NCBI GenBank assembly: GCA_944376745.1
Contig: CALWDR010000196.1
Location: 1-38,346, forward strand
Direction of reading: 5' to 3'
Length of the DNA stretch: 38,346 bases
Source of the DNA: an uncultured Lachnospiraceae bacterium
GTDB taxonomy: Bacteria; Bacillota; Clostridia; Lachnospirales; Lachnospiraceae
The notes under the pieces were generated by a model. It was not told the origin of the DNA, ran no database searches, and was given only the letters and a program-made list of their open reading frames with translations. Below are positions 3,990-31,108 of this stretch, one piece after another (position 1 is the stretch's first letter; every line of letters starts with the position of its first letter). Position numbers and translations under genes: made by a program.

Positions 3990-4031
3990 TACAAACCGGA
4001 CATTCCTATGCCTTGGAGGAACGATAGTACA
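3960..4031 (+). repeat. 38-bp-period duplication of the rhamnosidase 3' end
   Basis: The stretch 3960-3993, which holds the last codons and stop of the first rhamnosidase, reappears at 3998-4031 with 3 differences in 34 bases. The first 23 bases (starting GGACATTCCTATGCC) are identical. The second copy is untranslated spacer. It extends the reading frame of the next gene upstream to 4008, a false start. Confidence 0.85.
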
Positions 4032-4097
4032 CGCTGTGCCGGAAGGCTATGGGGAGAAAGTATACCGACAGTGAAAACAGATGCATGGAGGTTAAAA

Positions 4098-7468: not shown

Positions 7469-8392
7469 TCACTCCTCTCGCATGGCGAAGATCTTCATGG
7501 CTTTTTTACAGTTTTCCTTCATGGCCTTCGTGCCCCACTGGACAATGTCGTGGTACATGATGGGGCTGTCCTTGCCCTTTTCCACCAGAGAATAGCAGTA
7601 TTTGTAGTGTTTGCCGTCCTTCTCCAGCGGGATGCAGCCCATCTGGAACTGGCTGGCGATGGTCTCGCCGCCGGCCATGGCCATGTAGGTGTAGTAGTTG
7701 ACCTTGCGCACGCCCTTCTCGATGGCTTTGCGGAAATCCTCGGGGCTGACGCCGGAGCCGCCGTGCATGACCACGGGGATATGGGCTTTCCTGCGCACCT
7801 GCTCCACAACGCTGAGATCCAGCCTGGGGGCGCTTAAATACACGCCGTGGGTGGTGCCGAAGGAGCAGGCCAGGGCGTCGATGTCGGTCTCCTCCACGAA
7901 GATTTTCGCCTGATCCGGGTCGGTGTAGATTTTCTCCGGGTCCTTTGCGCCGGCGGAGCCGGAACCTGTCTCCCGCCTGCCCATACTGCCGATCTCCGCC
8001 TCCACGGAGGCTCCAGTCTGCCCGGCAAAGGAGACGGCCAGCTGGGTATTTGCCAGATTTTCCTCAAAGGGCAGGAGGGAGCCGTCGTACATGACGGAGG
8101 TAAATCCGAGGCTTAAGGCCTTGCACACATAGTCCAGGGTCTCGCCGTGGTCCAGATGGACGCAGACCGGCACCTTCGCCCGCCTGGCCATTTCCAGCAT
8201 GATGGGGCCGATGATCTCGATGGGCATGATCTCCTCGTGTACCTGGGCGTGCTGGATCACCACGGGCACCTGAAGCTCCTCCGCCGCGCCGATGACGGCC
8301 AGGACGGATTCCAGGTTCGGGGTATTGAAAGAACCCACGGCGCAGCCTCTGGCTTCGCACAGGTTCAATATTTGTTTCAGGGTGACTAGCAT
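7469..8392 (-). CDS. Class II ketose-bisphosphate-type aldolase (GatY/FbaA family)
   Basis: 307 residues from the ATG at 8392, which has AAGGAGG upstream and gives the usual start LVTLKQILNLCEARG followed by VGSFNTPN. Zinc and catalytic motifs are intact: VHLDHGETLD (about residue 82), SVMYDGSLLPFEEN, VEAEIGSMG, FGTTHGVY and VMHGGSGVS. The usual phosphate-binding VN(I/V)(G/N)TD stretch is replaced by VNYYTYMAMA, so the substrate is probably not ordinary fructose 1,6-bisphosphate. In the operon it follows an FGGY kinase. The expected reaction is retro-aldol cleavage of the kinase product to a three-carbon phosphate and an aldehyde. The sugar itself is unknown. Confidence 0.87.
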   Translation of the reverse strand: MLVTLKQILNLCEARGCAVGSFNTPNLESVLAVIGAAEELQVPVVIQHAQVHEEIMPIEIIGPIMLEMARRAKVPVCVHLDHGETLDYVCKALSLGFTSVMYDGSLLPFEENLANTQLAVSFAGQTGASVEAEIGSMGRRETGSGSAGAKDPEKIYTDPDQAKIFVEETDIDALACSFGTTHGVYLSAPRLDLSVVEQVRRKAHIPVVMHGGSGVSPEDFRKAIEKGVRKVNYYTYMAMAGGETIASQFQMGCIPLEKDGKHYKYCYSLVEKGKDSPIMYHDIVQWGTKAMKENCKKAMKIFAMREE

Positions 8393-8429
8393 TCTTCTGT
8401 TCCTCCTTCTGTGATGCCGAAAGTTTTTT

Positions 8430-8485
8430 GCGGTACCGCCGGCCGCTTTTTTCTGCGGCACTGCCCGTATTCTTTGCGGTACCGC
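8430..8485. repeat. Repeated GCGGTACCGC palindromes between kinase and aldolase genes
   Basis: The perfect 10-bp palindrome GCGGTACCGC occurs at 8430-8439 and 8476-8485, and a decayed form GCGGCACTGC at 8455-8464. T-rich stretches separate them. All lie in the 106-base gap after the kinase stop and before the aldolase start. They could be protein sites or small mRNA hairpins that tune expression of the aldolase. Confidence 0.7.
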
Positions 8486-8498
8486 CAGCCGCTTTCTG

Positions 8499-10016
8499 TT
8501 ATACCAGAGGCCGGACGGCCTCATACAGTTTCTTGTACCGCTCATAGACGGCCATGTATTTTCTGTGCATGACCGGGTCGGGCCGGTAGACCTTTTCCTT
8601 CTTCACCATATGGGCGGCAGCGTCCGCAAGATCCGCAAAGCATCCGGCGGCGATGCCCGTCAGCATGGCGCTCCCCACGGTTCCGGCGTCCGCCGTTTCA
8701 AGAGCCGTGATGGGCAGGTTCAGGATATTCGCCTTCATCTGCATCCAGACGCTGGATCTGGCGCCGCCGCCGGTGGCGTGAAGCATACCAAAATGAATGC
8801 CGGAAGCCTGAAGGCAGTCCAGATTCAGGCGCATTTCATAGGCCACGCCCTCCATGCAGGCCCGGTAAATATCGCTGACGGTGGTGGCGGTGGTAAGGCC
8901 CAGAATGGCGCCCTTTGAACCCGTATCCATATAGGGGGTTGCGGCCCCGGCAAAATGAGGCAGCACCAGCAGCCCCGTGGGCGCTGCGCCCGAATCTGCG
9001 GAAAGCTCTGTGGGCATTTCGGTACCCCCTTCCAGAAGCTCGTTGACGGAAATGCCACGGGCTTTGGCCAGCTCCTGCTCCTTCTTGGCCAGGGTGTCTA
9101 TGCACCACTGGATCAGCGCCCCTCCCGTATAGGAAAATGCGTAGGCGATATATTTTCCGGGGATCACATAGGGAACCACGGCGTAGCTGCCCTCGTACAT
9201 GGCCTTCAGCTTGGGAAGGCCGTCGTAGACCGGGATGACGCACTCCACGGTTCCGGCGCCCTCCGCAGCGGTGTCGGAGCCGAACACGCCGGCGCCCACC
9301 GTGGCGGCCAACTGGTCGTGGCTGATGGACACGATCTTTGTGTCGGGGGCAAGCCCCGTCTTATGGGCGATCTCCGGGCGAACGGTTCCCGCCGGGGTGC
9401 CGGTGGGGACCGGCTTTGACATGAGGCTTTTGTCAATGCCGGACGCGGCGAAGATCTCGTCGCTCCAGTCTAAGGCTGTGATGTCGAAGGCCATGGTCCG
9501 GGTGGCCATGGAGTAGTCGATCTGGGCGCGTCCGGTGAGGCAAAATACCACGTAATCCTCCATGAGAAATACGTGCTTTGCCTGGGCGTAAAGGTCCGGT
9601 CTGTGTTTTTTCAGCCACATCAGCTTGGAAATGCTGTACATTTCATGGGGCTTTAAGCCGGTGATGGAGGCGATGGTCAGGGGGTCCAATTTCTCTGTCA
9701 GCTCCCGGCACTCCTCCTTGCCTCTGGGGTCCGTGTACAGCATGGCCGGGTGGAGGGGCGTGCCGGCCTCGTCGGCCAGCACAAAGGTCTCCCCGAAGCT
9801 GGTGACGCCGATCCCCGCGATGTCCGGGTATTGCAAAGCCATTTGGCGGATGACGGAGAGCACCTTCGCGTAAATGGCTCCGGCGTCGATCTCATGCTCC
9901 CAGCCCCCGCGTTTGACCGGATAATCCCCATAGGCCTTGTCCAGAAAGGTTCCGTTTTCGTCAAATACGCTGAGTTTGCAGCCGGTGGTTCCGATATCCA
10001 GTCCTGCGATCTTCAT
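8499..10016 (-). CDS. FGGY-family carbohydrate kinase
   Basis: 505 residues, the normal length for the family. It opens with the phosphate-1 loop GLDIGTTGCKLSVFDENG, has EGAGTVECV near 255 and the C-terminal ATGGGARSSVWMQMKANILN block near 415 that binds ATP and ends the sugar site. GVTSFGET and DPRG in the first domain match xylulokinase-like members. The relatives phosphorylate xylulose, rhamnulose, fuculose, gluconate or glycerol, and the choice cannot be made by eye. The start is fixed by AAGGAGGG 6 bases upstream. It lies 17 bases after the isomerase gene and before the aldolase, so its likely substrate is the ketose made by that isomerase. Confidence 0.88.
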   Translation of the reverse strand: MKIAGLDIGTTGCKLSVFDENGTFLDKAYGDYPVKRGGWEHEIDAGAIYAKVLSVIRQMALQYPDIAGIGVTSFGETFVLADEAGTPLHPAMLYTDPRGKEECRELTEKLDPLTIASITGLKPHEMYSISKLMWLKKHRPDLYAQAKHVFLMEDYVVFCLTGRAQIDYSMATRTMAFDITALDWSDEIFAASGIDKSLMSKPVPTGTPAGTVRPEIAHKTGLAPDTKIVSISHDQLAATVGAGVFGSDTAAEGAGTVECVIPVYDGLPKLKAMYEGSYAVVPYVIPGKYIAYAFSYTGGALIQWCIDTLAKKEQELAKARGISVNELLEGGTEMPTELSADSGAAPTGLLVLPHFAGAATPYMDTGSKGAILGLTTATTVSDIYRACMEGVAYEMRLNLDCLQASGIHFGMLHATGGGARSSVWMQMKANILNLPITALETADAGTVGSAMLTGIAAGCFADLADAAAHMVKKEKVYRPDPVMHRKYMAVYERYKKLYEAVRPLV

Positions 10017-10033
10017 CTGACGCCCTCCTTCGC

Positions 10034-11437
10034 TCAGTCGATGTCCACCCAGTCGTAGCCCAGGTAGGTGGTGAAGGCTTCCTTTAAAATTTCCTTCATA
10101 TGGCCCACGCCCACGGAGGTGTGGTGTTTGAAGCCGCCTCTTGCCAGCCGGATCAGCTTATTCTGCAGGTCGGGGATCTCGCATACGCCGCCGCAGCCGA
10201 AGAAGGCCTCCTCGATGGGGTCCTCCGTAAAACGGGCTTCGCTGGCGTACACAATGATCCTGCCGTCTTTGGTCTGGCAGTTGGAAATGGTGGTGGGGAA
10301 GGCTTTGATGCGCCCCTCATTGCAGCCCCAGCCGGAGCCGGGATCATTTTTGGCGAACATCTTGTGCTCCGTCACGGTGCCCTTTGCCGTCATCAAGCTC
10401 TGGGCCACCGGTCCGCAGTGGAAGAGGATGACCTTATTTTCGTCGTCCCCGTAATTGTTGTTCCAGTCCAGCACGGCGGTGGGCTCCCCGCTGGCCAGCT
10501 GCATGGCCCGCATGGTCAGGGCGGAGCACATGTCGATCTCGCAGGAGGCCACGATCCCTCTGTCGTTCAGCTCGCTTAACAGCACGCAGGGACATACCCG
10601 AAGATAGGTCTCCAGCTCGTTCCAGCAGCGGAGGGTGAGAGCGTCCAGGTGGTATTCCTGAATGTATTCGTCCAGGACCACGGAAATCTTGGCCAGCGTG
10701 ATCTTGTTGGCCTCCGGTACCCGGGAAAAGTCTGTGTAGGCTTCCAGAACTTTGCGTTTTTCCAAAACGGCGGGATCGTTGTCCTCCTTGTGCTCCACCT
10801 TGTAGACCAGCTCGGAGAGGTCGAAGGATTCTACGTTGATGCCGTATTTCTGCAGGGTGATCTCGTCGAAGCGGACGGTCTTAAAGGCCGTGGTCCGGGC
10901 GCCGATACAGCCCACGTTGAACCGCTTCATGCCGTTGACCACCCGGCAGATGGCGGCGAAATCCTTCAGGTTCCGGGCGAAGGCCGGGGACAGGGGATGC
11001 ACCACATGGGGCTTCATCACGGTGAAGGGCACCCCGTACTGGGTGAAAACGTCGGTGACGGAAAATTTGCCGCAGTAGGCGTCGCGCCGGTGGGCGAAAT
11101 CCATTTTCCCGATCTCGTCGGGGTAGGCCTGCATGAGGATGGGGACGCCCGCGTCCTGGAGGGCCGTGATGGCGCCGTTTTCGTCGGCGAAAATGGGCAT
11201 GGAGAAGATGACGCCGTCATATTTTCCCTCATGGTCCTTTAACCATTTTGCATAGAGAAGCCCTTCGTCCCTGGTCTCGATGCCGCCGTACCGGGTCAGC
11301 TCCGGGTCCATGGCGATGTAGTCGTAGCCCGCCTCCGTGACGGCTTTTATCATGTCCTCTCTGGCTCCGTAGATCAGCTCGCCCGGCATAAAGCCCCGGT
11401 TGCAGAAGGCCAGCGCAAATGTCATGTTTCGTTCCAT
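10034..11437 (-). CDS. L-fucose/L-arabinose isomerase-like protein
   Basis: 467 residues. The N-terminal half is Rossmann-like and ends in the central domain; the C-terminal half holds VASCEIDMCSALTMRA, a short TAVLDWNNN, ILFHCGPVA and GFKHHTSVG. These place a Glu, an Asp and a His like the metal and catalytic residues of the FucI/AraA fold. It is shorter than true FucI (about 590 residues) and close to AraA in length but with different motifs, so it belongs to a broad, mostly uncharacterised isomerase branch. It is the first gene of the operon, behind AAAGGAGGAG, and should convert an aldose to the ketose used by the FGGY kinase. This is not RhaA-like in sequence even though rhamnosidases are nearby. 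Confidence 0.83.
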   Translation of the reverse strand: MERNMTFALAFCNRGFMPGELIYGAREDMIKAVTEAGYDYIAMDPELTRYGGIETRDEGLLYAKWLKDHEGKYDGVIFSMPIFADENGAITALQDAGVPILMQAYPDEIGKMDFAHRRDAYCGKFSVTDVFTQYGVPFTVMKPHVVHPLSPAFARNLKDFAAICRVVNGMKRFNVGCIGARTTAFKTVRFDEITLQKYGINVESFDLSELVYKVEHKEDNDPAVLEKRKVLEAYTDFSRVPEANKITLAKISVVLDEYIQEYHLDALTLRCWNELETYLRVCPCVLLSELNDRGIVASCEIDMCSALTMRAMQLASGEPTAVLDWNNNYGDDENKVILFHCGPVAQSLMTAKGTVTEHKMFAKNDPGSGWGCNEGRIKAFPTTISNCQTKDGRIIVYASEARFTEDPIEEAFFGCGGVCEIPDLQNKLIRLARGGFKHHTSVGVGHMKEILKEAFTTYLGYDWVDID

Positions 11438-11614: not shown

Positions 11615-13375
11615 CTATCTGTTGACTGGCAGCCTGATGGTCACGCTGAAATAATCTCTGCCGGAATCGATGCTGCAGCCGTATGGATTCCCGTACAATA
11701 GCTTTATGCGCTGGTGGATATTGTTCAGCCCAATGTGTTTGGACTGCAGGATGTCATCGTTTTCCAGCATATTGCGCAGTGCGGAGAGCTTTTCTTCCGG
11801 AATGCCGTTTCCGTTGTTTTGTATGCATACAAGCAGGCTGTCACTATCAATGCGGGAAGCGATGTTGATCTGAAAGGTCTCCCCCGGCGGCAGAAGCTTC
11901 ATGCCATGCTGGAACGCGTTCTCAATGATGGGCTGGAGCATCAGCTTTAAAACCTTGCAGTTAAGGGTATCCGCTTCAATATCCCATTTCAGCTGAAACG
12001 AGTTGTCATATTGTATTTTTAAAATTTCAATATATTTTTTTGCGTAAGCCAGCTCTTCCTCCAGTGTGGGAACGTAGTCGTTGGTCTCCATGGAAGCATA
12101 GAGCAGATCGGAGAGCAGTACGATGGTCCGGCTGGCATCGTTGTTGCTGTTTTTGGCATAGCCCGCTACCATAACGTTTACCATATTTAACGTGTTAAAA
12201 AGAAAATGGGGATTGAACTGCAGCTGGAGGGCGATGGACTGGGCCTTTTTCAGCTGCTGTATTTTCTGCACGAGCTCGTTTTCAAAGTGCTTGCTGGTAT
12301 TTGTGATCCTCATGATATTGTGTATGATAAATTCAATCTCATCCAGATTACTCTCCGTCCCGTCTGCGCTCAGACTCACGACAATGTTGTGGATCGACCG
12401 GTAAAACTGCAGGGAAAAATAGAGCGCCATCAGTATGGGAATGAGGATGGCCGTTATCAGGCAGAGCAGGAAAACAGCGTTGATGGCGCCGGTTCTCTGA
12501 CTGATATAATCCGGATTCGCGCGGAAGACCAATGTCAGCCGGTCATTTAAAATATCGGTACGGATAAAAGTGTCCCCATGATGATTCAGCAGCTGGGTGT
12601 CCTGCCCGGGTTCCTGGGAAAGCGCCGGCCAGATGGTATGGGAGGTGTCAATACGGGCCTCTGAAGCATTGTTTGAGGCATAGATGATATTCCTTTCCTG
12701 GTCGAGGATATACAGGGAGTCCAGGCTATAGGACAGATCGGTGGAGATCATCTCGTTGACGTATTTGGCCGGAATCGTAAAAACGATCATGCCGTTGAGG
12801 GCCGCGCCTGCGTATACGCCATAGCACAGGACAATGCGGTCAAATTTATTGTTTTCATCCCGGATCGGAAGTATAAAGTTCGTCTCGCCGGTTTTTTCAT
12901 AGTAGTCGTACCATGCCTTATCCGTAAATTTATTCAGATAATTACTGTTGCCGGTAGAGAAAACATAGCCGTGGGAAAGGCCGTATATATAAACGGAGTC
13001 AATGTAGTCTCTGGAAATAAGAAAAAAGTGCAGTAATTCCCGCAGGTCATTGGCCTCCGTGCCGGATTGATGCAGGGTTTGGGCAGGCTTTGTTATAAAG
13101 GATAAAGCCTTTGTATTGGTGGCAAGCTGACTGAACAGCGTGTTCGCTTCCGAAAAAACCGTATCGAGGGTGTAGATGGTCTTCGAACAGGAATTTTGGA
13201 AGGAGGAATAGAATTCGCTCTGCAATACATGATGATACATCATGTAGACGATGCTGTTTATGATGATAAATGGGATTAAAAAAACAAAGAGAAGTTTTTT
13301 CCAGTATTTCACAAGGATACTGTTCCATTTGTACTTTTTTATTAAATTACGGGCAAATTCGTAGGATTTATGCAT
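11615..13375 (-). CDS. YesM-type sensor histidine kinase
   Basis: 586 residues. One membrane helix at about 27-47 and a second at about 298-322 enclose a roughly 250-residue extracellular sensor domain. The cytoplasmic part has the phospho-acceptor His in QFNPHFLFNTLN (His390), the N-box QPIIENAFQHGM, the G1 box NNGNGIPEE and the GLNNIHQRI end typical of the HPK7/LytS-YesM group. It lies 10 bases after its response regulator gene, with a GAGGAAC site. YesM/YesN pairs in Firmicutes sense oligosaccharides and control adjacent importers and glycosidases, so this one probably controls the surrounding genes. The ligand is unknown. Confidence 0.92.
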   Translation of the reverse strand: MHKSYEFARNLIKKYKWNSILVKYWKKLLFVFLIPFIIINSIVYMMYHHVLQSEFYSSFQNSCSKTIYTLDTVFSEANTLFSQLATNTKALSFITKPAQTLHQSGTEANDLRELLHFFLISRDYIDSVYIYGLSHGYVFSTGNSNYLNKFTDKAWYDYYEKTGETNFILPIRDENNKFDRIVLCYGVYAGAALNGMIVFTIPAKYVNEMISTDLSYSLDSLYILDQERNIIYASNNASEARIDTSHTIWPALSQEPGQDTQLLNHHGDTFIRTDILNDRLTLVFRANPDYISQRTGAINAVFLLCLITAILIPILMALYFSLQFYRSIHNIVVSLSADGTESNLDEIEFIIHNIMRITNTSKHFENELVQKIQQLKKAQSIALQLQFNPHFLFNTLNMVNVMVAGYAKNSNNDASRTIVLLSDLLYASMETNDYVPTLEEELAYAKKYIEILKIQYDNSFQLKWDIEADTLNCKVLKLMLQPIIENAFQHGMKLLPPGETFQINIASRIDSDSLLVCIQNNGNGIPEEKLSALRNMLENDDILQSKHIGLNNIHQRIKLLYGNPYGCSIDSGRDYFSVTIRLPVNR

Positions 13376-13385: not shown

Positions 13386-14585
13386 TCACGTTTCCTGACC
13401 GCGCCAATGCATGCGGTATTCGTTGGGTGTCATATTGGTATGGGATTTTATCAGGTTATAAAAATGAGTGGTATTCTTATAGCCCACCAATTCGCAGATG
13501 GATACAACGGGGATATCCGTATCCCGCAGGTATTCCAGGGCTTTTTTCAGACGGACGTTGGTCAGGTAGCTGTTGTAATTTTCGTTCGTATGCTGTTTGA
13601 AAAAAGCGCTGAAGTAAATGGGACTCAGTGAAACGTGTTCCGCCACGTCCTTCAAAGTAATATTTTCGTTATAGTGGGCGAGAATGTATGCCTCCGCCTT
13701 CTCAATGATGGACTTTGACGTAAATACTTTATCCTTATTCAGTGCCTGGGCGCGCATCTGCGCGAAGGAAGAAAAATATTGAAACTCAATGGCCTCAAAC
13801 TCAAGGCGGAGTATCTCTGAGACGTTATCCTTAAACTGATTGGCGTAACGGACCACGTCCGTCTGAAACGCAGGCGTGTCAGCCTTCTCAAAACAGACAA
13901 ATTCAGCGGTATCAGAGGAGTACCGTATCAGGGAGCAAAACAGCTTGGGGTTCATGGGCAACAGGAAGAAAATGGCGTTATAAAAGCGCTCGATGCCGTA
14001 TTTCCAGGAATCGTTTATAAACCTCTGGAAATTTTCAAACCGGATCCGGAACAGGGCACAGCTTCTGTCCAGGATTGCCGCGTCCAGATTGATCTTCTCT
14101 ATTTCCGAGAGAATCTCCGTCATGCTGGTTATGGTATCGCACAGGATATGGGAAAAAAACCTTTGCTGGAGGGCCAGAAGGTTGCTGTCCGCAAAGGAGG
14201 TATTTTTCACGGAGGCGATTTTCGCACAGGCGGCTTTGAGCGCGTCCTCAAAGGCAGAAAAATCGATGGGCTTCGTGATGTAATCGATCACATTGTAGCG
14301 GGTAGCCTCCTGGGCGTACGCAAAATCTCTGTAGGCGCTGATAAATATAAACCAGGTATCCGGGTACAGCTCATGGCAGGACCTGGCCAGCTCAAGGCCG
14401 CTTTTAAAGGGCATCTTGATATCGCTGATCACTAAATCCACAGGATTCTCTTTCAGAAAAGCATCTGCCGCTTCGCCGTTCGCAAAGGTTCCTTCCAGTT
14501 TAAAACCGTAGGCTTCCCAGTCGTAAAGTCTGCTAAGCTGCCGCAGCATCACAGGTTCATCGTCTATCAGAATAAGCTTATACAT
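13386..14585 (-). CDS. YesN-type response regulator, AraC-family output
   Basis: 399 residues from the ATG at 14585, chosen for GGGAGG just upstream and because the receiver starts at once (MYKLILIDDEPVMLRQL). The acid pocket is Asp8-Asp9, the phospho-Asp is Asp55 in VISDIKMP, and the switch Lys lies in YITKPID. The middle is a poorly conserved linker. The last ~100 residues carry two helix-turn-helix motifs, LKDVAEHVSLSPIYFSAFF and VSICELVGYKNTTHFYNLI, of AraC type. It is cotranscribed with the YesM-like kinase and diverges from the GH3 gene. The duplicated block upstream of the GH3 and permease genes is its most likely binding site (inference). Confidence 0.92.
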   Translation of the reverse strand: MYKLILIDDEPVMLRQLSRLYDWEAYGFKLEGTFANGEAADAFLKENPVDLVISDIKMPFKSGLELARSCHELYPDTWFIFISAYRDFAYAQEATRYNVIDYITKPIDFSAFEDALKAACAKIASVKNTSFADSNLLALQQRFFSHILCDTITSMTEILSEIEKINLDAAILDRSCALFRIRFENFQRFINDSWKYGIERFYNAIFFLLPMNPKLFCSLIRYSSDTAEFVCFEKADTPAFQTDVVRYANQFKDNVSEILRLEFEAIEFQYFSSFAQMRAQALNKDKVFTSKSIIEKAEAYILAHYNENITLKDVAEHVSLSPIYFSAFFKQHTNENYNSYLTNVRLKKALEYLRDTDIPVVSICELVGYKNTTHFYNLIKSHTNMTPNEYRMHWRGQET

Positions 14586-14625: not shown

Positions 14626-14654
14626 AATATACAATATTTGCATAGTACAGGCAA
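14626..14654 (-). promoter_or_regulatory. Promoter of the two-component operon
   Basis: On the minus strand TTGCCT (14649-14654) and TATATT (14626-14631) are separated by 17 bp. It diverges from the GH3 promoter and ends about 40 bp before the response regulator start. Confidence 0.55.
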
Positions 14655-14666: not shown

Positions 14667-14745
14667 CGGTTTTCGAAAAAACTTGAATCAGGATAAGAAG
14701 ATGTTGATTTTAGATATAGTGAAGAAAAGCGGGAATGGGTATGAT
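14667..14745 (+). promoter_or_regulatory. GH3 promoter with shared activator block (copy A)
   Basis: The 53-bp block 14667-14719 is closely matched by 16403-16455. Conserved cores are ATCAGGATAA, GATGTTGATT and GATAT at fixed spacing. In both places TATGAT follows with its first base 21 bp after the block (here 14740-14745). There is no good -35 box, and the block ends where one would lie. This is the layout of a promoter activated by a DNA-bound AraC-type regulator. Confidence 0.75.
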
Positions 14746-14782
14746 GATTGCAGTTTACATTTGATGACGGAGGTATGGATAA

Positions 14783-16384
14783 ATGGAACAGATTTTAGAA
14801 ATGATGGATATGGATGATCTTTGCGGGCAGCTATTGTGCTATGACGTGTCCCCCAAGGATGACCCGGAGCAGATTGACCGGTTATTCCAAAAAATTCGTC
14901 CGGGCGGAATTTTTGTCTCCAATCTGACGCCGGAGCAGATCAAGCTGTATGCGGACATTGCGAACAAATACACGAAGGTGCCTGTGATCGTGGCGGCGGA
15001 TGTGGAAAATGGCCCTGGCTCCGCCATTGCCGGGGAAACCATGCTGCCCCATCCAATGGCCTGGGGAGCCTGCGATGACGAGGCGCTGATCGAGAGAGCA
15101 GCGGAGGAAACAGCGAAAATCTGCAGGAAAAGCGGAATTCACTGGACGCTGTCGCCCATCGTTGATATCAATATCAATCCCAATAATCCCCTGGTGAATA
15201 TCAGAGCCATCTCGGACAGCGCGAGGCAGGTAGCCAAAATCGGCGGGGCCATGCTGAAGGGACTGCAGAAAAACGGATATCTGGTGTGCAGCTGCAAGCA
15301 TTTTCCGGGGGATGGCGTGGACGACAGAAATCAGCATTTTTGTACCAGTATCAACCGTCTCTCGTTTTCGGAGTGGATGGAGACCTACGGATATGTGTAC
15401 CGGTCCATGATCGAACTGGGAACAGCCTCCTTCATGGCGGCTCATATCGCGCTGCCGGCCTTTGACGGAGAGAAGGATGAGATAACGGGATATAAGCCCA
15501 GCGTGTTGAGCCACAAGCTGATGACGGAGCTCTTAAAAGAGAAGCTGGGATTTAAAGGCTGTATCGTCTCCGACGCGATGAGCATGATAGGGGCATGCGC
15601 CATGACAGATTTAAAGCGGCTTCCGATCGAATTTATCAACGCGGGCGGCGATATCATCCTGTTCCCGGAGGACGGCGACTTTGATCTGCTCAAGGCGGCG
15701 GTTCTGAACAATGAAATATCTCAGGAGAGACTTAAGGATGCCGTCCGAAGGATCCTTGCCATGAAACAGAAGGCGCGGCTGTTTGAAGATCAGAAACAGG
15801 TGGAGGAAGAGATCCAGGGCACGAAGCTGGATGTTTTGGCGGATGAAATCGGCGAAAAAAGTATTAAGGTCATACGAAACGCAAAAAATATCCTGCCCTT
15901 GTCTCTGGCAGAAGGGGCCAGGGTCCTGCTTGTAAATCTGCAGAAGCAGGAGCAGATTCAGAGCACCTATGTACGGGGCCTGGACGAGCTGGAGCGGGAA
16001 TTGAAGCGGCGTGGATTTCAGACAACGGTAATGGTAAATCCTGCGCATACCGCGATCAGGGAAGTCATGGATTCCTATGACTGCATACTGGTCAACTGCA
16101 AGATGAGCAGTCAGGATTATCCGGGAGGCAGCCTGAGGGCGGGCTGGGATCAGTTTCCCGCTTTCTGGAGGGGGTATCTGTTAAAACATCCGAAGGTGAT
16201 CTTTACTTCCTTTGGCGATCCCTATAAATTGTATGAATTTCCGTTTTTACATACGTATATCAACGCCTTTTCTTTTTCGGAGAGCTCCCAGCGAGGGCTG
16301 GTGAAGGTCCTTCTGGGAGAGGCAGAGCCTGTGGCCAAGAATCCGGTGTCCCTGCCAGAATTTTTTGAAAGAGAGGTAGAATGA
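14783..16384 (+). CDS. Glycoside hydrolase family 3 protein
   Basis: 533 residues, no signal peptide. The N-terminal (beta/alpha)8 barrel has GGIFVSN, PVIVAADVENGPG, a CSCKHFPGDGVDDRNQHF loop near residue 172 and GCIVSDAMSM near 262, whose Asp is the GH3 nucleophile. The C-terminal part (about 360-530) is a short Rossmann-like domain. It is closest in layout to NagZ-like beta-N-acetylhexosaminidases. However, the Asp-x-His acid/base pair of NagZ is not spaced as usual here (D-x-x-x-H), so the specificity is open: hexosaminidase or beta-glucosidase/xylosidase. GGAGG lies 9 bases upstream of the start. It is followed by the importer operon, which shares its control block. Confidence 0.87.
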   Translation: MEQILEMMDMDDLCGQLLCYDVSPKDDPEQIDRLFQKIRPGGIFVSNLTPEQIKLYADIANKYTKVPVIVAADVENGPGSAIAGETMLPHPMAWGACDDEALIERAAEETAKICRKSGIHWTLSPIVDININPNNPLVNIRAISDSARQVAKIGGAMLKGLQKNGYLVCSCKHFPGDGVDDRNQHFCTSINRLSFSEWMETYGYVYRSMIELGTASFMAAHIALPAFDGEKDEITGYKPSVLSHKLMTELLKEKLGFKGCIVSDAMSMIGACAMTDLKRLPIEFINAGGDIILFPEDGDFDLLKAAVLNNEISQERLKDAVRRILAMKQKARLFEDQKQVEEEIQGTKLDVLADEIGEKSIKVIRNAKNILPLSLAEGARVLLVNLQKQEQIQSTYVRGLDELERELKRRGFQTTVMVNPAHTAIREVMDSYDCILVNCKMSSQDYPGGSLRAGWDQFPAFWRGYLLKHPKVIFTSFGDPYKLYEFPFLHTYINAFSFSESSQRGLVKVLLGEAEPVAKNPVSLPEFFEREVE

Positions 16385-16402
16385 TCCTTGACGAAAACGA
16401 CA

Positions 16403-16481
16403 GGATTTTGGAAAAATCTTAAATCAGGATAATGGGATGTTGATTCCCGATATTGCCGCAGGAGGAATGTTGATTTATGAT
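16403..16481 (+). promoter_or_regulatory. Importer promoter with shared activator block (copy B)
   Basis: 16403-16455 repeats the block found before the GH3 gene, and TATGAT at 16476-16481 lies at exactly the same offset. A third partial copy of the ATGTTGATT element is at 16467-16475 and runs into the -10 box. A transcript would start near 16488, giving a short leader to the permease gene at 16526. Confidence 0.72.
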
Positions 16482-16525
16482 ATGTCCTGTGAAGCAGAGA
16501 TATTTGCGGAAGGGAGAGAAGGAAG

Positions 16526-17473
16526 ATGAGAGTAAAAAAGGACAGGGCTATAAAACCATCCGGCAGAAAAGGCTTCGCCAGGAAATCCTCATGGCAGCTT
16601 TATTCCATGTGCGCCATACCGGTGATCCTTGTATTTCTCTTTAATTATCTGCCCATGGGTGGATTGGTCCTTGCGTTTAAGGATTATCGTTACGACAAGG
16701 GAATATTTGGAAGCGACTGGGTAGGGCTGAAGAATTTTAAATTCTTCTTCGAGACGGATACCTTTTCCCGGATCACCTTTAACACCCTGTTTATGAACTT
16801 TTTGTTTATCGTGACGGGAGTTGCCTGCTCGGTGGGTCTTGCGATCCTGCTGTTTGAGCTGAGAAGCAGACGGGCCACGAAGGTTTTCCAGACGGCGCTG
16901 ATCGTTCCCAATTTTATATCCTGGGTCATCGCCGCGTATATGGTTTTCGCACTGCTGAGCCCCAGAAACGGTGTGCTGAATGTCATCATCGAGCAGCTGG
17001 GAGGGCAGAAGATCGACTGGTACAGTAAGCCGGAAGCCTGGATCGTGATCCTGACAATCTGTAACCTGTGGAAGAATGTGGGTATCGATTCCGTTGTTTA
17101 CTATGCGTCTCTGATGGGCGTGGATATGGCCCTGTTTGAGGCGGCGGATATTGACGGCGCGACAAAATGGCAGAAGATAAAATACATTATCATACCTTCT
17201 CTTGGACCGGTGATATCCATTTTGACGATCCTGAAGATTGGAAATATCTTCAGAGCGGATTTTGGTCTGTTCTACAATGTGACAAGAAACGTGGGAACGC
17301 TGTATCAGACAACGGATGTGATTGATACCTATATATACCGGACCATGCAGTCGGTTGGGAACATGGGAATGTCGTCCGCCGTGGGCTTATTGCAGTCGAT
17401 CGTAGGATTTATCCTGGTAATGATCACGAATTATGTGACCAAGAAGATCGATCCGGACCGGGCGTTGTATTAA
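16526..17473 (+). CDS. ABC sugar importer permease (LplB type)
   Basis: 315 residues, about six membrane helices starting at residue 28 (MCAIPVILVFLFNYLPMGGLVLAF). The cytoplasmic coupling motif is EAADIDGATKWQKIKYIIIP, the EAA loop of binding-protein-dependent permeases. The pattern matches the first permease of LplABC/YtcQP-type CUT1 importers, which take up oligosaccharides. It is followed 19 bases later by its partner permease and then by the lipoprotein. No ATPase gene is in the window, as is usual for these Firmicutes systems, which share an MsmX-like ATPase (established for Bacillus). Confidence 0.93.
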   Translation: MRVKKDRAIKPSGRKGFARKSSWQLYSMCAIPVILVFLFNYLPMGGLVLAFKDYRYDKGIFGSDWVGLKNFKFFFETDTFSRITFNTLFMNFLFIVTGVACSVGLAILLFELRSRRATKVFQTALIVPNFISWVIAAYMVFALLSPRNGVLNVIIEQLGGQKIDWYSKPEAWIVILTICNLWKNVGIDSVVYYASLMGVDMALFEAADIDGATKWQKIKYIIIPSLGPVISILTILKIGNIFRADFGLFYNVTRNVGTLYQTTDVIDTYIYRTMQSVGNMGMSSAVGLLQSIVGFILVMITNYVTKKIDPDRALY

Positions 17474-17492: not shown

Positions 17493-18368
17493 ATGAAAAA
17501 GAAGCATAAAAACAGGCAGATTGGTTTGATTCTCTTTCTGACAATTTTATCCGTGCTGATCGCGCTGCCCTTTTTGATCCTGGTGAGCATATCCCTGTCA
17601 GAGGAAGAGCGTATTCTGAGCGAGGGCTATGGCTTGCTTCCCAGGGGATTGGATTTCTCCGCATACGAATTTGTATTCAAAAATCCGGCCTCCATATTGC
17701 AGGCGTACGCGGTAACGGCGGAATTTTCCGTTATCACGATGGTGCTGAGCGTGCTGTTGATGGCGCTGCTGGCGTACCCGCTTTCCAGAAGGGAGTTTAA
17801 AGGGAAAAAGGGCATCTCGCTGTATATATACTTTACCATGCTGTTCAGCGGAGGACTGGTTCCGACCTATATGGTGATAACGCAGTTTCTGCATCTGGGA
17901 GACACGATCTGGGTCTATATCCTGCCTTCCCTGATCAGTCCCTGGTACGTGTTCATGATGAGGACCTTTTTCCAGGGGATTCCAAACGAGATCTCGGAAT
18001 CGGCGCGCATAGACGGCGCAGGCCACTACACCATATTTTTCCGGATGATCCTGCCCCTTTCAAAGCCCGTGCTGGCCACGGTCGCCTTATTCATGTTTCT
18101 GGCAAAATGGAACGACTGGTATACCGCAATGCTGTATATCAATAAGGAAAGTCTTGTGAGCCTGCAGTATATGCTGCAGAGGATTATGGATAACATAAAG
18201 CTGCTGCAGGAAATGCCGTCCGGAATGACGGTAAATATTGCCGAGATACCTTCCGAGACGATCCGTATGGCAATGGCGGTTGTGGTAGCCGGCCCGGCGC
18301 TGCTGGTCTTCCCCTTCTTTCAGAAATATTTTGTCAAGGGGCTTACGGTGGGAAGCGTCAAAGGCTAG
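17493..18368 (+). CDS. ABC sugar importer permease (LplC/YtcP type)
   Basis: 291 residues with about six membrane helices from residue 8 on. The coupling motif ESARIDGAGHYTIFFRMILP is present near residue 170. The C-terminal ending, PFFQKYFVKGLTVGSVKG, is characteristic of the second permease of LplC/YtcP importers. GGGAGC lies upstream of the start. It pairs with the preceding LplB-type permease. Confidence 0.93.
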   Translation: MKKKHKNRQIGLILFLTILSVLIALPFLILVSISLSEEERILSEGYGLLPRGLDFSAYEFVFKNPASILQAYAVTAEFSVITMVLSVLLMALLAYPLSRREFKGKKGISLYIYFTMLFSGGLVPTYMVITQFLHLGDTIWVYILPSLISPWYVFMMRTFFQGIPNEISESARIDGAGHYTIFFRMILPLSKPVLATVALFMFLAKWNDWYTAMLYINKESLVSLQYMLQRIMDNIKLLQEMPSGMTVNIAEIPSETIRMAMAVVVAGPALLVFPFFQKYFVKGLTVGSVKG

Positions 18369-18467: not shown

Positions 18468-19991
18468 ATGAAGAAACAGAGAAAAGCATTGTCCCTTTTA
18501 TTGGCAGGCGCTATGGCGGTCAGCCTACTGGCAGGCTGCGGGGACGGCGGCAATGCGAATGAGGATCCCGAAAAGGAGAACACAGAGAACAACGAAGGCG
18601 AGGATTCGGAAAACGGAGATGAGGAGCCGGTAGTCCTCAAATGGGTTTTTCCGGCCGGTGAGCAGGAGGACGCTGCGTCAGTGCTGGAAAAGGTGAATGA
18701 GATCATCGAGCCCAAGATCGGCGCAACCCTGGAGCTGGAATTTGTGGAGTTTGGAGCATACGCGGATAAGCTGAACATGTATATGTCCTCGGGAGCGGAT
18801 TTTGATCTGTGCTATACCTCAAACTGGTGCAACGACTATGTGCAGGCGGTTGCTAAGGGCGGACTATATCCTCTGGATGAGCTGATCGAAAACAACACCA
18901 CGCTCCTTAAGGACGCGATCCCCGAGTATGCCTGGGAAGGCACCAAAATAGGCGGAGAGATCTACGCCGTTCCCAATATTCAGATCATGACCACCGGCAA
19001 TGCCTACTATATCTTAAAGGATGTGGCAGAGAAGTATGGTTTTGAGGGAGAAACCGCAGATCCGGAAATGATGGAAGCATTTTTGGAGAAGGTGAAAGCG
19101 GGTGAGGCAGACCTGATTCCTTACCTGGTGGACGCAGGAAACTTTGCCGACACGCTGTCCCCCTGGCTTACGGATTATGAGGTTCTGGACTCCACGCTGG
19201 GAATCGGCGTGAAGGAGGGCAGCTCAGAGGATGTAACCGCATGTGTGCTGTACGAGACGGAGGAATTTAAAGACGCCATCGCCACCCTGCGCGACTGGTA
19301 TCAGAAGGGCTATATCCGGGAGGATGTTGCAAGCGTGGGAGACCAGCAGGCGGATCTGAATTCTGGCAGGATCGCTGTGTACATCAGCAGAAATAAGCCC
19401 GGCGGAGCGGCCAGCGATTCCGCCATGAGAGGTCAGGAGTTTATCATGGTTCCCTTTGAGACTCCGTTGGTGACAACCGGCGGTATCCTCTCCACCATGA
19501 CCGGTATCAACAAAAACAGTGAACATCCTGAGAAGGCGATTCAGTTCCTGGAGCTTTTGTTTACGGATCAGGAGCTGTACCGGCTGCTGGCTTATGGCAT
19601 AGAGGGTACCCATTATACCACGGACGAAAATGGTCAGATCACTTATATCGAAAACAGCGGCTATAAGACGGATGCGGACTGGGCGATCGGAAATACCTTT
19701 ATGGGCTATTCCCTGGCAGGCCAGGAGGTAGATGTGCTGGAGCAGACCGAAGCGATGAATGACAGCGCAACGAAGTCTCCGGTTTTGGGCTTCACCTTTG
19801 ACGCCTCCAATATTCAGAGCGAATACGCGCAGATTGCCAGCGTGGTTGCGGAGTACAATCTGCTCTGGGCGGGGACCTTAGATCCGGAAGAAAGCTATGA
19901 CGAATTTATCGAGAAGCTTTATTCCGCCGGGATGCAGACTGTTGTAGATGAGTATAACAGGCAGATCCAGGAGTTTATGGCCACGAAATAA
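18468..19991 (+). CDS. Sugar-binding lipoprotein of the first ABC importer
   Basis: 507 residues. A lipoprotein signal peptide ends in LLAGC with the modified Cys at 24. A strongly acidic linker (GDGGNANEDPEKEN to about residue 55) tethers it to the membrane. The mature part begins LKWVFPAGEQEDAASVLEKVNE and has the length and layout of family 1 extracellular solute-binding proteins of the LplA/YtcQ kind. AAGGAGG precedes the start. It is the last transporter gene of the operon, and an unknown glycosidase-like gene follows. Confidence 0.92.
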   Translation: MKKQRKALSLLLAGAMAVSLLAGCGDGGNANEDPEKENTENNEGEDSENGDEEPVVLKWVFPAGEQEDAASVLEKVNEIIEPKIGATLELEFVEFGAYADKLNMYMSSGADFDLCYTSNWCNDYVQAVAKGGLYPLDELIENNTTLLKDAIPEYAWEGTKIGGEIYAVPNIQIMTTGNAYYILKDVAEKYGFEGETADPEMMEAFLEKVKAGEADLIPYLVDAGNFADTLSPWLTDYEVLDSTLGIGVKEGSSEDVTACVLYETEEFKDAIATLRDWYQKGYIREDVASVGDQQADLNSGRIAVYISRNKPGGAASDSAMRGQEFIMVPFETPLVTTGGILSTMTGINKNSEHPEKAIQFLELLFTDQELYRLLAYGIEGTHYTTDENGQITYIENSGYKTDADWAIGNTFMGYSLAGQEVDVLEQTEAMNDSATKSPVLGFTFDASNIQSEYAQIASVVAEYNLLWAGTLDPEESYDEFIEKLYSAGMQTVVDEYNRQIQEFMATK

Positions 19992-20020: not shown

Positions 20021-20070
20021 GACAGAAGGGTTTCGGTTCGAGGATAGGATGGACCGGAGCCTTTTCTGTC
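20021..20070 (+). promoter_or_regulatory. Hairpin between lipoprotein and next gene
   Basis: GACAGAA (20021-20027) is mirrored by TTCTGTC (20064-20070) across a 36-base loop, and GACAGAAAG recurs at 20082-20090. It could be a partial terminator that lowers expression of the following enzyme genes. There is no T-run. Confidence 0.3.
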
Positions 20071-20108
20071 TGAAACGGCCTGACAGAAAGAAAGGGCAGG
20101 GAAGATTT

Positions 20109-22016
20109 ATGAAGATAACGGTACCGGTTTCCATCGGCACATTGGGCCGCTGTGATAAACAGACCTTACTGACCCGGTTAGAGCAGCTGGGGGCGGATGA
20201 GGTGTATATTGTGTTCTTGCGTTCCGGTTTCAATCCATATCGTGATACAGACAGGGCGTTGGAGATTATTAAGAAGTATGGCCGTTTCTTAAATGAAAAC
20301 GGATATCGGACGGCTCTGTGGCTTACCGCCTTAAGCGGCTCTGAACAGCACGATTATCAGTATATGGTCGGGATCAATGGCGAACCGTCCTCTCCGCTGG
20401 TCTGTCCCTTTGACGACAGGTACACAGCGGATTTTTGCGGGCTGCTAAAGGAATTTGTCCGGGCAGGCATGAAGACCATTGTGCTGGATGATGACTTCAG
20501 AATGCAGCTGTGCGGCTCGGAGATATCCTGTTTCTGCGATAAACATATGGAATTTTACAGCCGCTGTATCGGCGAAGAAGTGACAAGAGAGAAAATGAAG
20601 GAAATGCTGCTGTGCCAGGGACCCAACCGATACCGGGAAGCGTGGATGGCAGGGTGCAGGGCTGCCCTTGAGAAAATGGCATCGGCGGTGCGGAGTGCCC
20701 TTGACGAGGAAGATGAGAGTGTCCGCATCGTATTATGCTGCGGGCCGGCTTTGTTTGGCGCGGACGGAACGGAACCCTACACACTGGCGGAGATCTTCGC
20801 CGGAAAAAATCACGAAAAAGAGCTGCGTCTCATCGGCGCTCCCTATTGGGAAAAGATGTTTCACGACAACATGCTCTCAGCCATAGATTTTGCCAGACAC
20901 CAGGCCTATGAATGTAAAAAGAGAGGTATTCTCACCATTGGGGAGGGAGATTCCTTCCCACGGCCCAGGTACGCGGTTTCCGCGGCAAAGATGGAATTTT
21001 ACCATACCATTACGCTGGCGGACGGGAATTTTGACAGACTGCTGAAATATGGGCTTGATTATATGTCGGATTTTGATTACGAGTCAGGATACGCGGACAG
21101 GGCCCAGGAGAATAAGCCGCTGTATCGGGAAATCGAGAAAATGTTTTCGGATAAGATCTGCGTGGGCTTCCATCTGGTTGAGCCCTTTGACCGGATCCGA
21201 TATGAGCATACCCTTGCGGAGTATCCGGAAATGAATATCATCCTTTCTTCTTCCCGGAATTACCTGAATGATCTTTCGCTGCCGTCGGTATTTGAACCCG
21301 GCGGAGTGAATGTCATGTTCGGAGAAAATGCCCGCCATTTTGACAGAGCTATTTTGAAAAACGGCACGATCCTGGATATGGACGCTGCGCTGATCCTGCA
21401 GGAGCTGGGAATTGACACGGGCATAAAGGAAGTTGTCAGGACAGACGAAAAGGAATGCAGAACAGAAGAGCTGGCTCATTTGACGGAAAGCTTTTTTGAG
21501 TATTATCCAGAGGAAGAGGACAACGCGCTTCTGACGGCGGAGCCCCATTGCTGCCATGGGCTTGTATTAAAGGAGAGCGCAAAGCCGGCTTCCTGGATCC
21601 ATATCAATGAGGATGTGGTTGTGGGGTCTTACACTTACGAGAATCAGGAAGGAGAAAAGTTCCTGGTGTACAATTTCGTAATGGATAAGGATGGCGGGAT
21701 TCAGGGATTGATACGGAATTATTACCGGCAGCGGCAGGTGATCCGCCTTTACTCGTGGCTGAACGGAAAGAAATTGGAGGCGATCTGTCCCGGGAATCCG
21801 GATCTGTATCTTATGGTGAAACGGGGGAAAGCTTCCCTGGCGGTTGGGCTGTGGAATTATTTTGAGGATAAAATCACAAAGCCTGTGATCTATCTTCATA
21901 AGACCTATAAAAATATCCGGTTTTTGAACTGCGACGGCGTTCTGGAGGGCGATAGAATTACGCTGACAAGCGGTCTTGGCGCCTATGATTTTGCCTTTGC
22001 GGAGGTCTGGGACTAA
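20109..22016 (+). CDS. Uncharacterised protein, possible TIM-barrel glycosidase
   Basis: 635 residues from the ATG at 20109, set by AGGGAAG just upstream. I do not recognise the family. Residues 1-330 alternate predicted strands and helices like a barrel. LDDDFRMQLCG (about 126-136) with a Cys-rich CFCDKHMEF just after recalls the acidic strand end plus zinc cysteines of GH42-type galactosidases. DFDYESGYAD and GEGDSFPR are further acidic segments. The last ~130 residues look like a beta-sandwich. No signal peptide. It lies between the importer lipoprotein and a hydrolase and a beta-helix enzyme, which supports a role in breaking down the imported sugar. The enzymatic role is inferred from position and these weak motifs. 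Confidence 0.6.
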   Translation: MKITVPVSIGTLGRCDKQTLLTRLEQLGADEVYIVFLRSGFNPYRDTDRALEIIKKYGRFLNENGYRTALWLTALSGSEQHDYQYMVGINGEPSSPLVCPFDDRYTADFCGLLKEFVRAGMKTIVLDDDFRMQLCGSEISCFCDKHMEFYSRCIGEEVTREKMKEMLLCQGPNRYREAWMAGCRAALEKMASAVRSALDEEDESVRIVLCCGPALFGADGTEPYTLAEIFAGKNHEKELRLIGAPYWEKMFHDNMLSAIDFARHQAYECKKRGILTIGEGDSFPRPRYAVSAAKMEFYHTITLADGNFDRLLKYGLDYMSDFDYESGYADRAQENKPLYREIEKMFSDKICVGFHLVEPFDRIRYEHTLAEYPEMNIILSSSRNYLNDLSLPSVFEPGGVNVMFGENARHFDRAILKNGTILDMDAALILQELGIDTGIKEVVRTDEKECRTEELAHLTESFFEYYPEEEDNALLTAEPHCCHGLVLKESAKPASWIHINEDVVVGSYTYENQEGEKFLVYNFVMDKDGGIQGLIRNYYRQRQVIRLYSWLNGKKLEAICPGNPDLYLMVKRGKASLAVGLWNYFEDKITKPVIYLHKTYKNIRFLNCDGVLEGDRITLTSGLGAYDFAFAEVWD

Positions 22017-22085
22017 GGAAACACCGCAAGGGTGTACCTGTATGTCCTGGGAACACGGACAATAACAAGGAAAGGATGGTATGGG

Positions 22086-23102
22086 ATGGAAGATATACGG
22101 TATCGGGAGGATATGAGAGCAGCAGAGGGCTGCCGCCGGGCTTATGTCGAGGGAATGGAAGCCTTAATTTCCGGAAGAGAAGCAAAGGCCCGGGCAGAAC
22201 GGGATGCTTACGCCAGAGACATTTTCCGGGATCAGGAGAAATACCGGGAAGACTACAGGCGGATGTTGGGCTGGCCGCTTGTTGGAGAACCGGACCATGG
22301 GACGCCCGCCGTAAGGCTTGAGAAGCTGTCGGAGGAAAAAAATATTTCTATTTACAGGATCACTTTGGAGGTTCTGGATGGATTTTCCATTACGGGGCTG
22401 TTGTTTCGGAAAGGGCAAGAGAGAATGCCTCTTGTGATCGCGCAGCATGGCGGAGGCGGAGCGCCGGAGCTTATGGGAAATTTTTATGGGGACACCCATA
22501 ATTATAATCATATGGCGGAAAGAATGTTGGCGTATGATGTCCATGTCTTTGCGCCCCAGCTGCTGCTGTGGGACAAGGAAACCTACGGGGTGGAATATGA
22601 CCGGGTGAACCTGGACGCGCGTCTGAAGCGGGTGGGAAGCTCCGTGACTGCGCTGGAGGTGTATGGGCTCACCAGAATCCTGGATTATTTTGAAGCCCAG
22701 GAGTATGTAAGCAATTTTGGAATGATCGGACTTTCCTACGGGGGCTTTTATACCTTGTTTACGGCGGCGGCCGATACTAGGATAAAGTCGGCGGTTGCTT
22801 GTTCTTTTTTTAATACCCGAAGCGACTATGCCTGGAGCGACTGGACCTGGTTTGGCTCTGCGCAGACCTTTTCCGATGCGGAGATCGCCTGTCTGGTGTA
22901 TCCCAGAAGGCTCTGCATAGAAGTGGGAGCAAAGGATGAATTGTTTGCGGTGGAAGGAGCAAGGGCGGAGCTGCGCCGCCTGCGGGAACTAAGCAGCTCG
23001 GTAACCGGAGATTGGATTGACTTCATCGAATTTGACGGTACCCATGAATTCTGCTGGGAGGAGGAGTCTTTGCGGCGGCTTGTCCGGGATATTCAATCAT
23101 AA
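22086..23102 (+). CDS. Alpha/beta hydrolase (dienelactone hydrolase/acetyl-esterase-like)
   Basis: 338 residues from the ATG at 22086; the frame runs further up to 22032 but without a site. The fold is shown by the nucleophile elbow GLSYGGFYT (Ser about 217), Asp in VGAKDELFAVEG, and His in FDGTHEFCW near the C-terminus, giving a complete catalytic triad. VIAQHGGGGAPE, near 118, is the oxyanion-hole loop. The N-terminal ~90 residues form a charged helical cap as in AXE1-like esterases. No signal peptide. Its place among glycosidases suggests a carbohydrate deacetylase, but a peptidase-like or lactonase role cannot be ruled out. Confidence 0.85.
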   Translation: MEDIRYREDMRAAEGCRRAYVEGMEALISGREAKARAERDAYARDIFRDQEKYREDYRRMLGWPLVGEPDHGTPAVRLEKLSEEKNISIYRITLEVLDGFSITGLLFRKGQERMPLVIAQHGGGGAPELMGNFYGDTHNYNHMAERMLAYDVHVFAPQLLLWDKETYGVEYDRVNLDARLKRVGSSVTALEVYGLTRILDYFEAQEYVSNFGMIGLSYGGFYTLFTAAADTRIKSAVACSFFNTRSDYAWSDWTWFGSAQTFSDAEIACLVYPRRLCIEVGAKDELFAVEGARAELRRLRELSSSVTGDWIDFIEFDGTHEFCWEEESLRRLVRDIQS

Positions 23103-25978: not shown

Positions 25979-27280
25979 ATGTATACGGTGCTGATCGTAG
26001 AGGATGAGATGTTGATCCGTGTGGGGCTTAAAAATCTGATCAACTGGTCCGGACTGGGAATGACGATTGTTGGGGAAGCGCAGGACGGAAACCAGGGGCT
26101 GGAGTTGTATCACCGAAAGAAGCCGGATGTGATACTGACAGACATTAAGATGTCTGGTATGGATGGGATTGAGATGATCCGTCAGATCCGGCAGCAGGAT
26201 ACCAGAACCAGGATTGTTGTTTTAAGCAGTTATGAGGATTTTTCCCTGGTGCGGGATGCCTTTGTGCTTGGGATATCAGATTATATCCTCAAGCTTAAGA
26301 TGATGCCGGAGGAAATGGAGCGGGTGATGTGCAAGGTCTGTGATGAGCTTAAGCAGGACCGGGCACAGGCGGAAATAGATAACGCCGGTAGGAGGCAGGA
26401 GGAGGAAGAAGCAAGGGCCAGGGTGAAAGCGAAATCGTATATTGTGGATGGAGCTTGTACGCCGGAAGAATTTCGTGGGTTGGCAGAGCGGCTGCGCATT
26501 TCGGAACAGGAACTTTGTGTGAGCGTTTTGGAGATTTTGCCCTCTGCGCAGAAACAGCGGACCACAGACCGGCAGCACACAGGAAGAATTGGTCAGATCG
26601 TGCTGAATCTGATCCAGACATTGTTGCTCGAATATGGAGAGGGAGAGGTCTGGCAGGAGAAAGAAACGCGGTATCTGATCGTGCAGAGTTTTCCGAAAGC
26701 GGAAAGCATAAGGGAGAAGCGTGAGCTTTGCGAAGCGGTTATAGAACGGATCCGGACTGCCGTACAGTCCTGCGTCAACCGAAAGCCGGTCTGCGGCGTA
26801 AGCGGCTTCGCGGACTCCTATCAGGAGCTGAACCGTTTGTACACGGAGGCTCTGTGGGCGCTGGAGACGGCCCTTTTGCAGGAGGAGCCATGGGGCTTTT
26901 ACGGAGACAGACAGAGCGGCGAAAAGGAGGCGGAACCGGTACGGCGTGAGGTGGCGGAGGCGCTTGTCTATATTCAGCTGCACTATGCGGATGAGGATCT
27001 GTCTCTGCCAAAGGTTGCCAGGGAGGTGGCGATCCATAAGGATTATCTGAGCAAGCTATTCAAGAAAGAAACAGGCATCGGATTTTCAGATTATATCAAT
27101 CTGCACCGGATTAAGAAAGCCCGGGAGCTTCTGGAAACAACATCCATGAGATCCTACGAGATTGCCAGACGGGTGGGTTTCCAGGATGAAACATATTTCT
27201 GTCGGGTGTTTAAGAAGATTATGGGGATGGGGGCTAATGAATACAGAAGGAAAGAAAAGGACAAGCCGTTTTCTGAGTAA
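25979..27280 (+). CDS. Second YesN-type response regulator, AraC output
   Basis: 433 residues. The receiver opens YTVLIVEDEMLIRVG, with phospho-Asp55 in LTDIKMSG and switch Lys in YILKLKMMPEEM, where Lys-Pro is changed to Lys-Leu as in many YesN relatives. The middle domain (about 150-310) is divergent. The AraC-type C-terminus has LPKVAREVAIHKDYLSKLF and YEIARRVGFQDETYFCRVF. GGGAGGGGG precedes the start. It overlaps the kinase gene by 44 bases and controls, by position, the second importer. Its site is probably near 29141-29160. Confidence 0.92.
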   Translation: MYTVLIVEDEMLIRVGLKNLINWSGLGMTIVGEAQDGNQGLELYHRKKPDVILTDIKMSGMDGIEMIRQIRQQDTRTRIVVLSSYEDFSLVRDAFVLGISDYILKLKMMPEEMERVMCKVCDELKQDRAQAEIDNAGRRQEEEEARARVKAKSYIVDGACTPEEFRGLAERLRISEQELCVSVLEILPSAQKQRTTDRQHTGRIGQIVLNLIQTLLLEYGEGEVWQEKETRYLIVQSFPKAESIREKRELCEAVIERIRTAVQSCVNRKPVCGVSGFADSYQELNRLYTEALWALETALLQEEPWGFYGDRQSGEKEAEPVRREVAEALVYIQLHYADEDLSLPKVAREVAIHKDYLSKLFKKETGIGFSDYINLHRIKKARELLETTSMRSYEIARRVGFQDETYFCRVFKKIMGMGANEYRRKEKDKPFSE

Positions 27281-29054: not shown

Positions 29055-29065
29055 TAGAAGGAGTT

Positions 29066-29131
29066 CAAAATAATCCAAGAAAGCTTGCATTATTATGCAA
29101 CATGCTCGCTTATTGGATTATTTTGTTTTTT
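29066..29131 (+). terminator. Terminator after the second two-component system
   Basis: CAAAATAATCCAA (29066-29078) is perfectly paired with TTGGATTATTTTG (29113-29125), followed by T6 (29126-29131). The 34-base loop holds its own inner hairpin, TTGCAT/ATGCAA. It separates the regulators from the importer operon. Confidence 0.85.
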
Positions 29132-29159
29132 ATAATAAGCAATATTACATAATATTTTA

Positions 29160-29189
29160 TTGATGTAAACGGGAAGTGAATGCTAAAAT
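29160..29189 (+). promoter_or_regulatory. Promoter of the second importer operon
   Basis: TTGATG (29160-29165) and TAAAAT (29184-29189) are separated by 18 bp. Just upstream, AATATT at 29141-29146 and 29151-29156 flank ACAT and form an A/T-rich palindrome, a possible site for the neighbouring response regulator. Confidence 0.6.
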
Positions 29190-29225
29190 AACGGAAAGAA
29201 ACACGGAGGATACAATCCGATAGAA

Positions 29226-30161: not shown

Positions 30162-30186
30162 TTGATATGCGCAAGGAGGAATCGGT

Positions 30187-31101: not shown

Positions 31102-31108
31102 CGTATGG

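Follow-up and report, generated by a model that had tools for sequence, protein, structure and literature searches.

A paired tandem half-site as a candidate target of an AraC-type response regulator upstream of a GH3 gene and a sugar importer in a Lachnospiraceae bacterium

The locus

The window considered here, a stretch of 38,346 nucleotides from an uncultured Lachnospiraceae bacterium (contig CALWDR010000196.1), encodes on one strand a response regulator and a sensor histidine kinase, and on the other a GH3-family enzyme followed by two ABC permeases and an extracellular solute-binding protein (Table 1). The combination of a regulator having a receiver domain and an AraC-type HTH, a partner kinase, and linked permeases and binding protein is YesMN-like, a term that denotes likeness only and carries no implied orthology to Bacillus subtilis YesM/YesN. 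At related loci importer genes are similarly linked to such two-component genes. The kinase has a dCache match that, at 34.8 bits, is below the cut-off of 45 bits. The GH3 protein is probably cytoplasmic. Its nearest solved structure is that of a beta-glucoside phosphorylase (5vqd, E 1.8e-70), which makes it possible that the enzyme acts as a phosphorylase and not as a hydrolase.

After the kinase gene and on the same strand (7469-11437, minus strand) are genes for a fucose-isomerase-like protein, an FGGY kinase and a class II aldolase, and two rhamnosidase-type proteins are encoded at 1734-6383; together these suggest a deoxysugar or related pathway. The two proteins encoded after the importer genes (655 aa, 20049-22016, and 356 aa, 22032-23102) have no Pfam or NCBIfam match, and the larger has no PDB match either. 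The same window also has a second cluster of AraC-type response regulator, kinase and importer at 25979-32889.

Table 1. Positions of genes, control blocks, half-sites and promoter elements in the window
Feature	Position	Strand	Remarks
Sensor histidine kinase	11615..13375	-	His_kinase PF06580, E 4e-19; HATPase_c PF02518, E 2.9e-6
Response regulator, candidate binder of the block	13386..14585	-	Receiver PF00072, E 1.3e-19; AraC-type HTH PF12833, E 5.5e-19
Promoter-like site, regulator and kinase genes	14626..14654	-	Divergent, adjoins block 1; consensus match only
Control block copy 1, GH3 promoter	14667..14719	+	41/53 identical to copy 2, ungapped
Distal half-site CTTGAATCAGGATAA, block 1	14682..14696	+	
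Proximal half-site GTTGATTTTAGATAT, block 1	14703..14717	+	21 bp from the distal one
Degenerate -35 position TAGTGA, GH3 promoter	14717..14722	+	3/6; 17-bp spacer
-10 TATGAT, GH3 promoter	14740..14745	+	Predicted start near 14752
GH3-family enzyme	14783..16384	+	PF00933, E 7.4e-55
Control block copy 2, importer promoter	16403..16455	+	Ungapped alignment to copy 1
Distal half-site CTTAAATCAGGATAA, block 2	16418..16432	+	
Proximal half-site GTTGATTCCCGATAT, block 2	16439..16453	+	
Weak -35 TTGCCG, importer promoter	16453..16458	+	4/6; 17-bp spacer to -10
Third half-site GTTGATTTATGATAT	16469..16483	+	Over importer -10, 30 bp past the proximal one
-10 TATGAT, importer promoter	16476..16481	+	Predicted start near 16488
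ABC permease 1	16526..17473	+	BPD_transp_1
ABC permease 2	17493..18368	+	BPD_transp_1
Extracellular solute-binding protein	18468..19991	+	SBP_bac_1 and DUF3502

Two copies of a 53-bp block

Upstream of the GH3 gene and again upstream of the importer genes is a 53-bp block, the copies of which align without gaps at an offset of exactly 1736 bp. That such a pair exists, with conserved words at fixed spacing, had been claimed in a first-pass annotation and is borne out, since the 41 identities exceed the best 53-bp match in 2000 shuffles of both intergenic regions (33; mean 26.5). The columns identical in both copies read -G-TTTT-GAAAAA-CTT-AATCAGGATAA---GATGTTGATT---GATAT-G, and within them the core ATCAGGATAA-N3-GATGTTGATT-N3-GATAT is exact in each. 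In the 3-bp gaps between the conserved words every base differs between the copies, and identity in the flanks on both sides is at background level with the exception of TATGAT. The same annotation had placed this hexamer 21 bp past the block in both cases, and it is found there, at 14740 and 16476; a 6-base run common to both downstream flanks at one offset has a p of ~0.02 by shuffling.

Neither the rest of the window (0 expected) nor any of 298 further genomes in the family contains the core pattern, and the genome-wide search that the annotation had proposed found just the two copies in the 4.32-Mb assembly, with up to three mismatches allowed. The rarity of the block makes its regulator look local and pathway-specific. 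The importer of the second two-component cluster has no copy in front of it. Near matches to the half-site pair described below, with 2-3 mismatches, occur in the same genome at position 4722 of contig C54, at 35288 of the window and at position 31820 of contig C143; the first is inside a kinase-like reading frame and the second inside an APH-family gene (34403-35362), and both were taken as chance. Gut Clostridia from ruminants and deer have relatives of the GH3 protein at 45-60% identity; on 23 public contigs with GH3 relatives the block was not found upstream, so that the gene appears to move about independently of this control.

With copies only 1.7 kb apart and on the same strand, recent duplication of a promoter segment needs to be kept in mind, in which case the copies would match by descent alone with no regulator bound. 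This is very improbable given that the copies agree in half-sites and spacing, differ at every position of the 3-bp gaps and have flanks that bear no relation to each other; besides, duplication is not exclusive of a role in control, as a copied promoter may still function. A reading of the block as an RNA leader or riboswitch was also considered and set aside: an Rfam search of the window for such elements gave no match, and the block is upstream of the predicted transcript start.

Promoter elements

The proximal half-site of each block overlaps by 1 bp the position that a -35 element would have with a 17-bp spacer to TATGAT. The annotation had seen no -35 in either promoter. This stands for the GH3 copy, where the hexamer at that position (TAGTGA) has 3/6 consensus bases, and does not for the importer copy, where TTGCCG (4/6) is a weak -35 at the 17-bp spacing. 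On the other side of block 1, the promoter-like site reading from 14654 to 14626 adjoins the block, and so block 1 could influence expression of the regulator itself; consensus promoter matches of this kind arise here at chance rate.

Direct or inverted half-sites

Each block can be read as two direct units of the form TTRAWTnnnGATA, 21 bp apart, and thus about two helical turns, in both copies. This internal tandem repeat was not part of the first-pass annotation and is the mechanistic core of what is proposed below. The best joint self-similarity of the two blocks in 15-nt windows is at an offset of 21 bp (19/30). When the block is considered alone, with columns shuffled and the same 15-nt length, the p value for a direct repeat is ~0.11 if any offset is allowed and 0.005 if only 21 is, so on this evidence the repeat is only suggestive. 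The inverted reading AATCAGGAT-N6-ATGTTGATT scores equally or slightly better: across arm lengths, again for the block alone, its p values are in the range ~0.02-0.1 versus 0.07-0.4 for direct symmetry.

What gives preference to the direct orientation is a third half-site, in the importer promoter, together with the related loci considered in the next section. Exact matches to TTRAWTNNNGATA number six in the window against 0.41 expected, and five of the six are within the two promoters, all five on the plus strand; the sixth, at 35288, is inside a coding region and probably due to chance. As the TTRAWTNNNGATA pattern was derived from four of its promoter matches, only the third unit of the importer promoter counts as independent support, and a matrix made of the other four units places it 5th in the window. 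The GH3 promoter has no counterpart of it.

The inverted arms, scoring as well as the direct repeat, would suit a palindromic operator bound by a dimeric regulator other than the adjacent one, which might be a repressor with its gene elsewhere. Against this, the third half-site, at 16469, is a further direct unit oriented like the others, and the window proteins scanned include no LacI-, GntR- or TetR-type gene product; moreover, the only two copies of the block are both beside the two-component genes.

The same near-equality of scores also bears on whether the adjacent response regulator binds the block as an inverted pair or mainly represses, and the half-site over the importer -10 is in a place typical of repression. 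The tandem pair, however, is upstream of, and abuts, a poor -35, which is a typical place for activation, and most AraC-type response regulators that have tandem sites act as activators (PMC8579813), so that an inverted-pair or repressing role for the regulator is considered quite improbable. If the adjacent regulator is instead an activator bound to direct half-sites, the third unit could have a further role: activation by the phosphorylated regulator would start from the tandem pair, and at higher levels the regulator would also cover the importer -10, damping expression of the importer and not of the GH3 gene. Such a band-pass response, which would limit sugar uptake relative to cleavage, is an unlikely possibility.

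Related importer loci

The comparison drew on importer loci of the family and the order that have the same permease, many of which were uninformative because a binding-protein gene precedes the permease. Among the others is a promoter family, present in several genera of the family, in which TTTGTRTCATTT is upstream of the importer permease and starts exactly 32 bp before the -10 (L118, L120, L121, L122, L051 and L055, with one base off in L051). In five of these six promoters a similar half-site is 21 bp further upstream (~20 in L122); tested together, these five give p = 0.0075 for a direct repeat at 21 bp, and inverted repeats of equal arm length in them are not significant. That this family has direct and not inverted repeats argues further against the palindromic operator introduced above, which is considered improbable.

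The preferred reading, direct half-sites for the neighboring response regulator, fits with how motif and protein vary together. The HTH regions of the neighboring regulators at L118, L120, L121 and L051, on which this HTH class was defined, are 69-82% identical to each other and 29-31% identical to that of the window regulator. The regulators of L055 and L122 were fetched later and, by inspection, have the same HTH class, so that a small prediction held. A second HTH class (L057, L058 and L059, 87-93% identical) is associated with a different half-site, ACCAAACGA, which forms a pair at 19-bp spacing immediately upstream of a TTGAAA/TATAAT promoter; in L058 there are two such pairs, on the reverse strand upstream of the permease gene at 3211-4146. 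Relative to the 21-bp class, the HTH of the 19-bp-class regulators has a one-residue deletion, which might be related to the shorter spacing. At L053, from another family of the order, AAAGTCATTATA occurs twice, 21 bp apart. The half-site motif thus follows the HTH class of the neighboring response regulator at related loci, and the window regulator stands apart from both of these classes in its HTH as well as in its motif.

When 34 repeat spacings were ranked over 31 importer promoters, 19 bp came first and 21 bp second, with Z values of 4.3 and 2.7. These values are somewhat inflated, as the set contains both promoters of the window as well as three near-identical loci, and many single promoters among the 31 have no clear 19-21-bp repeat. 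In the sampled family, genus and nearest relatives no ortholog of the window regulator was found beyond ~34% identity, and for this reason direct phylogenetic footprinting of its site failed.

Proposed mechanism

It is quite likely that the block is a tandem AraC/XylS-type activator site and that the adjacent response regulator activates both the GH3 gene and the importer genes from it; the best reading of these two transcription units is as a local regulon of that regulator. The first-pass proposal that the block is the site of the YesN-like regulator encoded next to it gains support from the anatomy of the promoters and from the comparison with related loci. From the arrangement of the DNA we infer regulator binding, its dependence on phosphorylation, activation, the transcript starts and a sugar signal, in the following way. 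The kinase would sense extracellular sugar and phosphorylate the regulator, two monomers of which would bind the two direct half-sites on the same face of the DNA. Because the proximal half-site abuts the -35 position, the bound regulator would make up for an element that is missing or weak and, by class II activation, would bring in RNA polymerase at the TATGAT -10, whose distance from the site is constant. The GH3 enzyme and the sugar importer would in this way be switched on together.

The locus itself is ordinary, and paired tandem activator sites, as the blocks most likely are, make a familiar kind of bacterial switch. What it offers is a specific, testable candidate motif for an AraC-type response regulator of the Lachnospiraceae, and a comparative rule of tandem half-sites 19-21 bp apart, at a fixed distance before the -10, with a motif that follows the HTH class. 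Gut bacteria of the family have many uncharacterised clusters of regulator, kinase and importer, and such a rule could be of use in working out their regulons.

Comparison with known systems

The layout of 15 + 6 + 15 bp abutting the -35 position is nearly the same as that of XylS at the Pm promoter, whose repeats have 6 bp between them and are 21 bp apart from start to start. The Pm sites are two 15-bp direct repeats in tandem, each with a 5′ box and a 3′ box (PMC5481539), and the proximal repeat overlaps the -35 by 2 bp (PMC4225500). XylS is nevertheless a one-component regulator with direct binding of its inducer, and its boxes are TGCA and GGTA; the regulator considered here has a receiver domain in place of the inducer domain. 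In several groups, rhamnose regulators of the AraC type also show a 21-bp periodicity (PMC3870299).

Among two-component relatives, the AraC-type hybrid two-component systems (HTCS) of Bacteroides have predicted direct-repeat motifs at a mean distance of 21 bp, and the likeness extends to direct repeats near glycan-use genes and to a motif that follows HTH phylogeny; in the Bacteroides systems, however, sensor, kinase and regulator are one polypeptide, and here they are two separate proteins (PMC3878776). In the Clostridia, XydR of Clostridium cellulolyticum is likewise an AraC-type response regulator encoded beside a carbohydrate gene cluster, which it controls, and mobility shift showed it to bind upstream of that neighboring cluster; no consensus site was established for it (PMC3572039), whereas a specific motif is proposed here. 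In BxgRS of Caldicellulosiruptor bescii, too, an AraC-type response regulator and kinase are beside a CUT1 oligosaccharide importer. For AraC-type two-component regulators of local importers in Caldicellulosiruptor, tandem sites precede promoters that have been mapped, and three of the five systems are taken, by prediction, to be activators (PMC8579813). The genus and the motif are different from those of the present case, and the C. bescii sites are conserved across species and accompanied by mapped 5′ ends (PMC8579813).
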